Shown: positions 5,838 through 9,804 of the stretch, piece after piece
How the letters are laid out: each line of letters opens with the position of its first letter
Position numbering within the stretch: the first letter of the stretch is position 1
Source of the DNA: Halolamina litorea
GTDB lineage: Archaea; Halobacteriota; Halobacteria; Halobacteriales; Haloferacaceae
NCBI RefSeq assembly: GCF_026616205.1
Contig: NZ_JANHGR010000001.1
Coordinates: forward strand, 496,001-560,000
Length of the DNA: 64,000 bases
Direction of reading: 5' to 3'
Made by a program: the position numbers and the translations under genes
Notes under the pieces: generated by a model
The model's input: the letters and a program-made list of their open reading frames with translations, nothing else
Told to the model about the DNA's origin: nothing
The model's database searches: none

Positions 5838-6647
5838 ATGTCGACCCCTGCCGATCTCCTCGACGACCTGACGGCTGACTTGGACGCGCTGTTCGTGTTC
5901 TCGCCCAGCAGCGGATTCTACGAACGGTTCGAGGAGAGCGAGGAGGAGGTCGTGGTCGTGGCCCCGGAGAACTCCGTCGACGCGGAGACGTTCGTCGAAC
6001 TCCCCCTCGAGTTCGACAACGTTCGGGACCGCATCCGGTTCGGTATCGAGGGGGCTATCGACCGCGGGATCGTCGACGACGGTGACGACGTGGCCTGCGT
6101 GGTTGGGGTCTTCGGCGACGACTACGACTCCCTGGTCCGGGTTCGCGTCGACGAGTCGATCCACACCGGCATCTACGACCTGTTCGTGAACTCGCGTGCG
6201 GACCCCGGGGTCATCCGTGACGTGTTCGAGGTCGTGATGGAACTCGGCAAGAAGGGCCAGAAGGGCAAGCCAGTCGGCGCGCTGTTCGTCATCGGCGACG
6301 CCGGGAAGGTGATGAACAAGTCCCGCCCGCTCAGCTACAACCCCTTCGAGAAGTCCCACGTCCACGTCGGCGACCCCATCGTGAACGTGATGCTCAAGGA
6401 GTTCTCGCGGCTCGACGGCGCGTTCGTCATCAGCGACTCGGGAAAGATCGTCTCGGCGTACCGCTACCTCGAAGCCGGCGCCGAGGGCGTCGACATCCCG
6501 AAGGGGCTCGGCACCCGGCACATGGCCGGGGCGGCCATCACGCGGGCGACCAACGCGACCTCGATCGTGCTCTCGGAGTCCGACGGGCTGGTTCGGGCGT
6601 TCAAGGGCGGGGAGTTGATTCTGGAACTCGATCCGGAGGACTACTGA
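5838..6647 (+). CDS. dacZ: Diadenylate cyclase DacZ (c-di-AMP synthase)
   Basis: Condenses two ATP into c-di-AMP, a second messenger tied to osmotic balance in haloarchaea. The DAC domain fills the C-terminal half: the catalytic DGA motif lies in LDGAFVISDSG (residues 192-202), and the ATP-contacting GTRHMAGAA segment is at 225-233, a variant of the usual RHR motif. The N-terminal half (1-140) matches the archaeal DacZ regulatory domain; no DNA-binding DisA domain is present. Length 269 fits. It overlaps the next gene, an MscS channel, by one base (TGATG), a pairing that suits a role in osmotic control. Confidence 0.9.
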   Translation: MSTPADLLDDLTADLDALFVFSPSSGFYERFEESEEEVVVVAPENSVDAETFVELPLEFDNVRDRIRFGIEGAIDRGIVDDGDDVACVVGVFGDDYDSLVRVRVDESIHTGIYDLFVNSRADPGVIRDVFEVVMELGKKGQKGKPVGALFVIGDAGKVMNKSRPLSYNPFEKSHVHVGDPIVNVMLKEFSRLDGAFVISDSGKIVSAYRYLEAGAEGVDIPKGLGTRHMAGAAITRATNATSIVLSESDGLVRAFKGGELILELDPEDY

Positions 6648-7453
6648 TGGTGGAGCCGGTGGCGATCCAGTTCGGCTTCGAGCTCGGCGGCCCGCTCGGA
6701 GCGGTCCCGGAGCGGATCTGGCTCGCCTTCGCGGTGTTCCTGCTCTCTGCCGTGCTGGCGTGGGCCGTCGTGAAGGTCAACGCCGGCCTGCTCGAACGGG
6801 CTGGCCTCCCCGAGAGCATCGAGGGGACCGCGTTCGAGCGGACCGCTCGCGGCGTCGGCACCTCGACGGTGGCCATCCTCTCACAGCTCTCGGGCTGGTT
6901 CATCGTGATCCTCGGCGCCATCGTCGCCATCTCCATCGCGGAACCGAGCTACGCGGACCAGTTCTGGTCACAGACGACCGGCTTCCTCCCGAGCCTCTTC
7001 GTCGCGGTGTTGATCCTGATCGTCGGCATCGTCGTCGGCGACAAAGTCGAACTCTTCCTCACCGAACGGCTGCGGAGCGTCAAACTCCCCCAGATCGGGA
7101 TCGTCCCGACCGCGGCGAAGTACAGCGTCTTCTACGTCGCGTTCGTCCTCGCCCTCGACCAGATCGGGGTCGCCACGTTCGCGCTGGTCGTGCTGCTGGC
7201 GCTCTACGCGCTGGCGATCGTCGTCTTCGGCGTCGTCGCCGGCAAACAGATGCTCTCCTCGGCGGCCGCCGGTATCTACCTGTTTCTGAACCAGCCGTAC
7301 GGCATCGGCGATACGGTGAAGATCGGCAACCAGCGGGGTGTCGTACAGGAGATCGACGTGTTCGTCACCCACATCGAGGCCGAGAGCGAGGAGTACGTCG
7401 TCCCGAACGATCGGGTGTTCGACGGCGGCATCGTGATCATTCACGACGACTGA
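6647..7453 (+). CDS. Small-conductance mechanosensitive channel, MscS family
   Basis: A 268-residue membrane protein with about four to five transmembrane helices followed by the short MscS beta domain. The beta domain is seen in FLNQPYGIGDTVKIGNQRG and a following VVPNDRVF segment. It ends soon after the beta domain, so the large cytosolic cage of E. coli MscS is missing or much reduced. Its ATG overlaps the dacZ stop, so the two are almost certainly co-transcribed and translationally coupled. Likely function: pressure relief on hypo-osmotic shock, perhaps gated or tuned through c-di-AMP (inference). Confidence 0.85.
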   Translation: MVEPVAIQFGFELGGPLGAVPERIWLAFAVFLLSAVLAWAVVKVNAGLLERAGLPESIEGTAFERTARGVGTSTVAILSQLSGWFIVILGAIVAISIAEPSYADQFWSQTTGFLPSLFVAVLILIVGIVVGDKVELFLTERLRSVKLPQIGIVPTAAKYSVFYVAFVLALDQIGVATFALVVLLALYALAIVVFGVVAGKQMLSSAAAGIYLFLNQPYGIGDTVKIGNQRGVVQEIDVFVTHIEAESEEYVVPNDRVFDGGIVIIHDD

Positions 7454-7480
7454 GAACATCGGTTCGACCGGTTTCACCGT

Positions 7481-7497
7481 TAAATATTTATTCAACA
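7481..7497 (+). promoter_or_regulatory. Strong AT-rich promoter (TATA) before the 7520/histidine kinase unit
   Basis: The run ttaaatatttattcaac is the most AT-rich stretch nearby. It contains a TATA-like core about 27-32 nt before the ATG at 7520 and an 8-bp palindrome (aaatattt, 7483-7490). It suggests an independent, well-expressed leaderless or short-leader transcript. Confidence 0.55.
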
Positions 7498-7519: not shown

Positions 7520-8245
7520 ATGCGGGACGATGCAGCGGCCGAACACGCCACGTCTGAGGTCACCGCTGCCGGCCCCGAGGCGGTTTCCGCCGCCGAGTCG
7601 GTGTTGGACGCGTTCTACCAACAGGACCAACGCGAACTCCACCTGATCCGTGGTGACGCCGACGCGGCGATGCGTGCCCAGGAGCGCGCGAACGTCGGCA
7701 TGACCCGAGCGTTCGCCGCCGAGTTTCCGACTATCTCCACGGCGGCCGCCGAACAGGCCGGGACCCGCTTCATGCACGCACTCTACTTACAGGACGAGAT
7801 CGAGAACTGGGAGTACGTCGTCGAACAACGGTCGAACCCAGGAATCGAGGAACTGCTGTTCACCGAGGGATCGGTGCCCGCCGAGACCCGCCAGTCGAGT
7901 GATCCCCGGTGGGACTGCGTCGAGGGCTGCCTCGAGGAGGTCTGTTCGTACACCGGCATCGACCCCGAGTACGCCGTCTGTCAGACGCGGTTCTGGAAGC
8001 TCCACGGCGGCGTCGAGGACTACTGGCGACAGGACGCCCTCGACGCCCACCGGCTGAAGCTCCGGTCGATGATCCCCGGCGCCGCCGAGTCGACGATCGA
8101 GTCGCTGGCCGAGACGTTCGTTGACGGCGTCGCCATCCACGACGACTGGACCCACCAAGACCGCGAGGCCGACCTCGAGCGTGTCCTGGACATGGTCGCC
8201 AACTACTACCAGCGAGTGTTCGACGTTCGGGCGGTCGAGGGATGA
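7520..8245 (+). CDS. Unknown Cys-cluster protein, partner of a histidine kinase
   Basis: A 241-residue soluble, largely helical, acidic protein that I cannot assign to a family. Four cysteines fall within 22 residues (C133, C137, C142, C154) in a region beginning WDCVEGC, which is unusual because haloarchaeal proteins are Cys-poor; histidines at 41, 86, 162, 177, 207 and 212 could also be ligands. Its stop overlaps the ATG of the PAS histidine kinase by four bases (ATGA), so the two are translationally coupled and probably act in one signalling unit. It could be a sensor input protein, a metal or haem binder, or an unusual regulator; all of these are inference. Confidence 0.75.
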   Translation: MRDDAAAEHATSEVTAAGPEAVSAAESVLDAFYQQDQRELHLIRGDADAAMRAQERANVGMTRAFAAEFPTISTAAAEQAGTRFMHALYLQDEIENWEYVVEQRSNPGIEELLFTEGSVPAETRQSSDPRWDCVEGCLEEVCSYTGIDPEYAVCQTRFWKLHGGVEDYWRQDALDAHRLKLRSMIPGAAESTIESLAETFVDGVAIHDDWTHQDREADLERVLDMVANYYQRVFDVRAVEG

Positions 8246-9279
8246 CCGACGACACTGACGACTCGCCGACGCTGATGCCGGAGATGTACCGGCGAGCGTT
8301 CAAACACACCGCCACGCCGGCGCTCATCACCGACGAGTCACTCGCCATTCGCGAGGTGAACGACAGCGGACTCGCGTTCGTTGGCTACGACTTCGAGGAA
8401 CTCGAAGGGCGGTCACCGGCCGCCATCTCCGCCGACGACAGCATCTACGGCGAGATCGTCGAACACCTCCAGCGTGGGGAGTCCTGGCAGGGGACGTTCA
8501 AACTACTCACCGCCGACGGCGACGTGGTCTTCGGGCAGGGGTCGACCTCCGCTATCGAGTTCGACGGAACCGTTCATGGCTACGTTGCCGTCTTCACTGA
8601 CACGACCAAGGAGCGCCGCTACCGCGACGCTTCGGAGGTGCTCGGGCGCCTCCTCCGGCACGACCTCCGGAACGAACTGAACCTCCTCTACGGCCACATT
8701 CAGCGCGCCGAGAACCGCATCGACGACCCCGATGCCCGTGAGTCCCTCCAGCGTGCCAAGGACGGGCTGGCGGACCTCTCCCAGAAGTCCGACCGAGCCC
8801 GGGACCTGCGTGAGGGGCTGGAACGCTCGTGGGACGCCGAGACCGAGCCGATCCGGTTGGACCTGCTGTTGCAGGACTGTATCGTCGCCATCGACGACGA
8901 ACACCGCGAGGCGGAGTTCCACTACGACCGCTTCCCCGAGGTCCGGGTCGCCGCCGACGACCTGCTCTCGATCGTCGTCGAGGCCGTCCTCGACAACGCG
9001 ATCGATCACAACGACGCGTCGACGCCCCGCGTCACCGTCGAGGTCAAGGACGGCGAGGAGACGGTGACGCTGCGGGTCTCGGACAACGGTCCGGGAGTCC
9101 CCCAGGGGCAGGCCGACCTCATCTTCGGCCGCGAAGAGGTCGACCCGCTTCACCACGGTACCGGTATCAGCCTCTTCTTCGCGGACACGGTCGTCTCCAG
9201 TTACGGCGGCGAGATCTGGTGTGCCAACCCCGGCGCCGACGACGGCGCGACCTTCTGTGTCTCGCTCCCCCGGGCCTGA
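8242..9279 (+). CDS. PAS-domain sensor histidine kinase (soluble)
   Basis: A 345-residue cytoplasmic kinase. A PAS domain covers about residues 18-125. The H-box LLRHDLRNELN places the phospho-acceptor at His140. The ATPase domain shows the N box AVLDNAIDH (Asn252), DNGPGVP (281-287) and a G2 motif HGTGISLFFA (305-314). No transmembrane segment is present, so the signal should be intracellular or delivered by a partner. The upstream unknown protein overlaps it by four bases. No response regulator is adjacent; the HalX regulator at 33227 is far away, so its output is unknown. Confidence 0.9.
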   Translation: MTDDTDDSPTLMPEMYRRAFKHTATPALITDESLAIREVNDSGLAFVGYDFEELEGRSPAAISADDSIYGEIVEHLQRGESWQGTFKLLTADGDVVFGQGSTSAIEFDGTVHGYVAVFTDTTKERRYRDASEVLGRLLRHDLRNELNLLYGHIQRAENRIDDPDARESLQRAKDGLADLSQKSDRARDLREGLERSWDAETEPIRLDLLLQDCIVAIDDEHREAEFHYDRFPEVRVAADDLLSIVVEAVLDNAIDHNDASTPRVTVEVKDGEETVTLRVSDNGPGVPQGQADLIFGREEVDPLHHGTGISLFFADTVVSSYGGEIWCANPGADDGATFCVSLPRA

Positions 9280-9294
9280 TCGAGCGGCACCGGA

Positions 9295-9804
9295 CTACTC
9301 CTCGCCGTCCCGCGAGAGCGGCTCCGCGGGCACCCCGGCGACGGTCTCGCCGTCTGGAACGTCCTCGACGACCAGCGAGTTCGCCGCGACCTGCGCGCCG
9401 TCACCGACTTCGACCCCCGGCAACACGATGGCACCGGCGCCGATCATCGCCCGGTCCCCGATCACGACGTCGCCCAGTCGATACTCCTCCTGCAGGAACT
9501 CGTGACAGAGCAGCGTCGCGTCGTAGCCGACGATGGCGTCGTCGCCGAGCGTGATCCGTTCGGGCCAGAACACGTCCGGGGTGGCCTCCAGCCCCCACGA
9601 CACCCCCTCGCCTACGTCGGCGCCGAGACGGGCGAGCAGCCAGTTCTTGACCCGGAGGCTCGGCGACACCCGGATCAGCCAGACGACGACGTAGTTCAGC
9701 GCAACCCGGAGGGGTGACTTGGCGTCGGGCCAGTGCTGGAGGGAGTTCCGCGGGCCGGAGGTGGCGTGGCGTTCCAGCCGGTCGAACCGCGAGCCGTCGC
9801 TCAT
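9295..9804 (-). CDS. Left-handed beta-helix acyltransferase (Maa/LacA-like)
   Basis: A 169-residue protein of the hexapeptide-repeat acyltransferase class. Repeats of the [LIV]-G-X4 type run from about residue 80 to 155 (for example ITLGDDAIVG, VVIGDRAMIGAGAIVLPGV and GAQVAANSLV), and the C-terminus has the usual AGVPAEPL. Enzymes of this fold move acetyl or other acyl groups from CoA to sugars or other small molecules; the substrate is unknown. The N-terminal segment has one amphipathic or hydrophobic stretch (RVALNYVVVWLIRV) as in several sugar acyltransferases. Convergent with the histidine kinase. Confidence 0.85.
   Translation of the reverse strand: MSDGSRFDRLERHATSGPRNSLQHWPDAKSPLRVALNYVVVWLIRVSPSLRVKNWLLARLGADVGEGVSWGLEATPDVFWPERITLGDDAIVGYDATLLCHEFLQEEYRLGDVVIGDRAMIGAGAIVLPGVEVGDGAQVAANSLVVEDVPDGETVAGVPAEPLSRDGEE

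Follow-up and report, generated by a model that had tools for sequence, protein, structure and literature searches.

Within the window, by which we mean the whole 64,000-nt stretch of Halolamina litorea DNA that was analyzed, a gene for a protein designated here X runs directly into a gene for a soluble PAS histidine kinase (Table 1). Both open reading frames and their four-base overlap are present as described by the first-pass annotation, as is the AT-rich stretch 5' of X that it had taken for a promoter. This TATA-like element, ttaaatatttat, ends 28 nt before the X start codon and, judged from its sequence, is compatible with a separate archaeal promoter for X. The surroundings of the pair, which that annotation did not name, consist of dacZ and its operon partner, encoding an MscS-type channel, on the left and a convergent hexapeptide acyltransferase-like gene on the right; the latter forms a conserved border of the X-kinase cassette. 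An operon of dacZ and mscS2 is reported for all halobacteria (PMC6741144); the authors describe dacZ as essential in Haloferax volcanii and propose for the two genes a putative role in osmotic homeostasis. The genes of the H. volcanii operon (HVO_1660-1659) are those that flank the pair in the window, and relative to this operon the X-kinase cassette is an optional downstream insert. The main text of the same paper (PMC6741144) does not mention a histidine kinase.

Table 1. Genes and sequence features at the X-kinase locus (positions within the window).
Feature	Position	Strand	Basis
dacZ (diadenylate cyclase)	5838-6647	+	PF19294 3e-55, PF02457 3.5e-20
MscS-type channel gene, dacZ operon partner	6647-7453	+	PF00924 6e-10
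AT-rich TATA-like element ttaaatatttat 5' of X (putative promoter)	about 7480-7491	+	sequence only
Protein X gene	7520-8245	+	ATG start, 241 aa, ORF
Cys142 codon, the only conserved X cysteine	7943-7945	+	X alignment
ATGA, stop of X and start of kinase	8242-8245	+	4-nt overlap
Soluble PAS histidine kinase gene	8242-9279	+	ATG start, 345 aa, ORF
Kinase PAS domain, about residues 14-128	8281-8625	+	TIGR00229 E 2e-13, PF13426
Predicted phospho-acceptor His140 in LLRHDLRNELN	8659-8661	+	homology to HisKA H-box
Hexapeptide acyltransferase-like gene, convergent	9295-9804	-	PF00132 2e-10

The kinase belongs to a known type. Pfam recognized PAS_9 (PF13426, 2e-8) and HATPase_c (7e-17; 62.4 bits, above the cutoff of 26.4), while HisKA scored 12.9, below its cutoff of 26.9; the LLRHDLRNELN H-box and the motifs of the ATP site are nevertheless kept across the aligned kinases. 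No transmembrane domain was found among its domain matches, in agreement with the earlier description of the protein as lacking membrane segments; in a census of archaeal kinases, 62% were without transmembrane segments (PMC5847659). In domain order, H-box, ATP-binding motifs, and lack of a membrane segment, the window kinase resembles other archaeal soluble PAS/HisKA/HATPase_c kinases. It differs from them in that its clade has a co-inherited, dedicated neighbor of an undescribed family and no recognized response regulator in its neighborhood.

That neighbor, X, had been described as belonging to no nameable family, and the Pfam, NCBIfam, and PDB-sequence searches bore this out. X had no Pfam or NCBIfam match at E ≤ 1 and none beyond chance level in PHROGs, PADLOC, or PDB sequences; matches to DUF7662 (0.03), HEPN (0.17), and a DHH protein (0.92) were at chance level and were discarded. 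Neither X nor the kinase matched a PADLOC model for anti-phage defense, and a viral or plasmid origin of X was set aside, with no relative in IMG/VR at the sensitivity used or in PLSDB. An AlphaFold2 model built on a 14-sequence alignment (pLDDT 90.9, pTM 0.88) contains ten helical segments, and X is thus confidently predicted to be an all-alpha protein. Foldseek returned nothing significant for this model, the best E-values being 0.39 in the PDB and 0.31 in BFVD with low TM-scores; rows for trichodiene synthase, C3PO, and PhoU-like proteins, non-significant in E and low in TM-score, were given no weight. The profile and structure comparisons proposed by the first-pass annotation therefore yielded neither a known family nor a significant PDB fold. 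Values of dN/dS between 0.12 and 0.44 in nine pairs of relatives indicate that X is under purifying selection, which in most pairs is weaker than that on the neighboring genes.

True orthologues of X, counted apart from weak matches to distant relatives, were found in 23 of the 170 family genomes searched, the window included, and those of the other genomes are 38-48% identical to the X of the window; the one in G166 is frame-shifted and lies in two pieces. In 22 of these 23 genomes X is directly upstream of a kinase orthologue. This count comprises 18 fully read loci at the dacZ site, all with the order dacZ, mscS, X, kinase, and convergent hexapeptide gene, as well as G035-G037, for which the order dacZ-X-kinase was taken from match coordinates, and the window itself. 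The exception is a MAG (G161) in which X lies elsewhere and carries an N-terminal CxxC zinc-finger-like stretch; no related kinase was detected in that assembly at E ≤ 1e-55. Each of the 40 genomes without X that were examined has dacZ and mscS, with the hexapeptide gene directly next in most of them, and in six species of the same genus X and kinase are both absent, the stops of mscS and the hexapeptide gene being 9-22 nt apart as against 1,841 nt in the window. Among 292 sampled genomes of the class, 20 have a kinase of this clade (E < 1e-85) and 17 of the 20 also have X. In G062 and G063 the kinase is kept at the dacZ site without X, and no X remnant was found there.

Outside the order, the search of 393 phylum genomes gave no member of the X family except on one nanohaloarchaeal MAG contig (Ca. 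Nanohalalkaliarchaeum, L129:6935-7642), an orphan X that could stem from transfer from a halophilic host or from a binning error. Other singular arrangements were seen as well. In G160 (L178:5690-6748), a kinase of this clade is flanked by a prefoldin-like region and a hemC-like gene and has no X with it, and an uncultured Halobacteria MAG (L127:6833-7645) has an X with an N-terminal CPYC...H...H zinc-finger-like extension, adjoining a dihydroneopterin aldolase gene and without a kinase. In Haloferax mucosum (L048:6727-7437) X is broken by an in-frame TGA, and in a Salinigranum-genus genome (L049:6897-7844) it is frame-shifted; the kinase is open in both, so that either decay of X or a sequencing error may be involved.

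Constant neighborhood could in principle arise by inertia, X and the kinase being functionally unrelated genes that happen to occupy one locus. The whole dacZ-mscS-X-kinase block is indeed co-inherited in Haloferacaceae, and the correlation between X and kinase tree distances (0.91 over 22 pairs; 0.96 over 17 pairs at the dacZ locus) is nearly matched by the correlations with DacZ distances (0.90 and 0.91); shared descent thus explains some of the agreement between the X and kinase trees. However, in Halalkalicoccus, which belongs to another family of the same order, X and kinase are adjacent in five of five genomes with neither dacZ nor mscS alongside. We regard this adjacency at an unrelated place as the strongest evidence that conservation attaches to the pair and not to the locus. 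Together with the joint absence of X and kinase from loci whose flanking genes stay, it makes simple inertia very unlikely. Rather, because the pair stays together even elsewhere in the genome, the helical protein X is probably the dedicated partner of the kinase. Adjacency across haloarchaea had been proposed as a check on the idea that the pair is a signaling module, and it held both in the family and in Halalkalicoccus; joint absence, congruent trees, and one in-frame fusion (below) favor the module as well.

The claim that the two genes are translationally coupled fared less evenly. The ATGA overlap exists in the window and one Halalkalicoccus has the same four-base overlap (X end 7714, kinase start 7711), but coupling is not general, as 50-283 nt separate X from the kinase in the other relatives for which this distance was measured. 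A conserved AT-rich element lies within the spacer in Haloferax and Halogeometricum, and X and kinase may thus be transcribed separately there. In Halogeometricum limi the intergenic stretch is read through in frame to give a single X-kinase ORF of 598 aa; since the GTG start of the kinase is kept, both products are possible. The fusion is confined to this one genome and may also result from an error in sequencing the stop codon. Three Salinigranum loci (L042, L046, and L047) carry a repeated GCCTGGCACGC motif both 5' of X and in the spacer before the kinase, possibly a regulatory site or a small repeat.

The feature of X that had first drawn attention was its cysteines, four of which (positions 133, 137, 142, and 154) fall within 22 residues in the window and had been read as a candidate metal or haem site. 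The first-pass annotation had itself named lack of conservation as the finding that would count against this reading, and among 20 aligned X proteins only C142 is invariant, C133, C137, and C154 each being private to the window sequence. The cluster is therefore not a feature of the family, and the metal or haem reading loses its basis. In a wider alignment, position 142 is Cys in 11 of 11 X proteins and Ala in 24 of 24 distant X-like proteins, so that one cysteine marks the kinase-paired clade. This contrast, and the density of cysteines in the window strain, could still speak for X as a cysteine-based sensor of metal, haem, or redox state, but a lone conserved cysteine cannot form a Cys4 site, and we consider such a sensor highly improbable.

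A different set of invariant residues emerged from the relatives of X. X is connected to a broader haloarchaeal superfamily, which has no Pfam entry and which the first-pass annotation had missed, by weak but significant profile matches (E-values per genome as low as 1.6e-12). When 11 X are aligned with 24 X-like proteins, the invariant residues are D36, F69, D92, E95, Y151, H162, H207, D208, and Y229, and W131 and W159 come close to invariance. Judged by topology, D36, D92, E95, H162, H207, and D208 fall on the C-terminal ends of helices 1, 3, 7, and 9 or close to them, and so could face one end of the helix bundle. Consistent differences also separate X from X-like proteins (Q35/H, Q91/K, R130/D, C142/A, G163/K, H177/Q, and K180/E), a pattern that a change of role would be expected to leave. 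The distant members lie mostly beside non-kinase genes, including DUF7344 helix-turn-helix genes and others, and not beside a kinase of the window type.

Seven distant X-like genes (L051, L053, L054, L062, L063, L064, and L066) recur beside a DUF7344 helix-turn-helix-like gene, an assignment confirmed by Pfam in L051 and made by similar sequence in the remaining loci. The same loci encode secreted proteins whose SRRKALAALGTIG...GLGTSAYFSDQETF leader has a SipW/TasA-like look, and this neighborhood is conserved in haloarchaea without a named function. At three further loci (L165, L166, and L167), from three genera and two families, distant X-like genes and genes for large PAS histidine kinases with several domains are divergently oriented; these may represent one shared locus and were not counted as evidence.

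The invariant Asp, Glu, His, Tyr, and Trp residues, kept in X and the whole X-like superfamily, have the look of an active site. X might accordingly be an enzyme or a metabolite-binding protein that shares a pathway with the kinase without touching it, the kinase sensing the metabolite through its PAS domain or controlling X; the kinase does contain a PAS domain itself and is found in some genomes that lack X. On the other hand, X matched no enzyme family, and a direct partnership accounts better for the tight one-to-one pairing, the agreement of the trees, and the in-frame fusion, which leaves the enzyme reading unlikely, if still to be reckoned with. Conserved histidines (H162, H177, and H207) in an all-helical protein, beside a kinase without a recognized response regulator, could alternatively place X downstream of the kinase, as its target, as an HPt-like phosphorelay intermediate, or as its inhibitor. 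None of 17 X orthologues gave a Pfam match to HPt at E ≤ 5, however, and the roughly ten helices and 241 aa of X contrast with the four-helix HPt bundle. Moreover, X-like proteins that have no kinase neighbor keep H162 and H207 just as strictly. A downstream role thus appears improbable.

We therefore favor, with a probability of about one half, the interpretation that the two proteins constitute a dedicated signaling module in which the PAS kinase is controlled by X, a soluble and all-helical subunit with a sensor or regulatory role. X would bind a small ligand or metal via D36, D92, E95, H162, H207, and D208 and would contact the PAS or dimerization (DHp) region of the kinase, thereby controlling it; the kinase would then phosphorylate an unlinked response regulator. 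Behind this reading stand two intact genes, conserved pairing at two unrelated places, joint absence, congruent trees, fusion, purifying selection, and the helical model. Running counter to a dedicated module are kinases without X (G062, G063, and G160), X without a kinase (G161 and the nanohaloarchaeal MAG), possibly separate transcription in Haloferax and Halogeometricum, the restriction of the fusion to one genome, and the mostly non-kinase neighbors of X-like genes. A parallel exists in two-component systems whose accessory proteins supply input to the kinase or restrain it, in that a separate protein lies beside, and is inherited with, one kinase clade, as X does; X itself is unrelated in sequence to any family searched.

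The location of the pair suggests a link to osmotic state or c-di-AMP, but since in Halalkalicoccus the pair lies apart from dacZ, such a link would be optional. A bolder proposal, which we consider a long shot, is that X defines a new, specifically haloarchaeal sensor fold, helical and binding a ligand or metal, and that within it one clade became the dedicated input subunit of a kinase at the c-di-AMP synthase/MscS locus and conveys osmotic state or c-di-AMP levels into phosphorylation. The X-kinase module itself is real, a conserved combination of a known kinase type with an unnamed helical partner that is not described in the literature searched. None of the libraries searched holds an entry for the X-like superfamily to which this partner belongs, and the PDB shows no close fold. 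The module is testable in Haloferax, for which genetics are established, and species naturally without the pair exist. Many soluble PAS kinases of haloarchaea have no known input, and a constant, separately encoded partner provides a concrete handle on that input.
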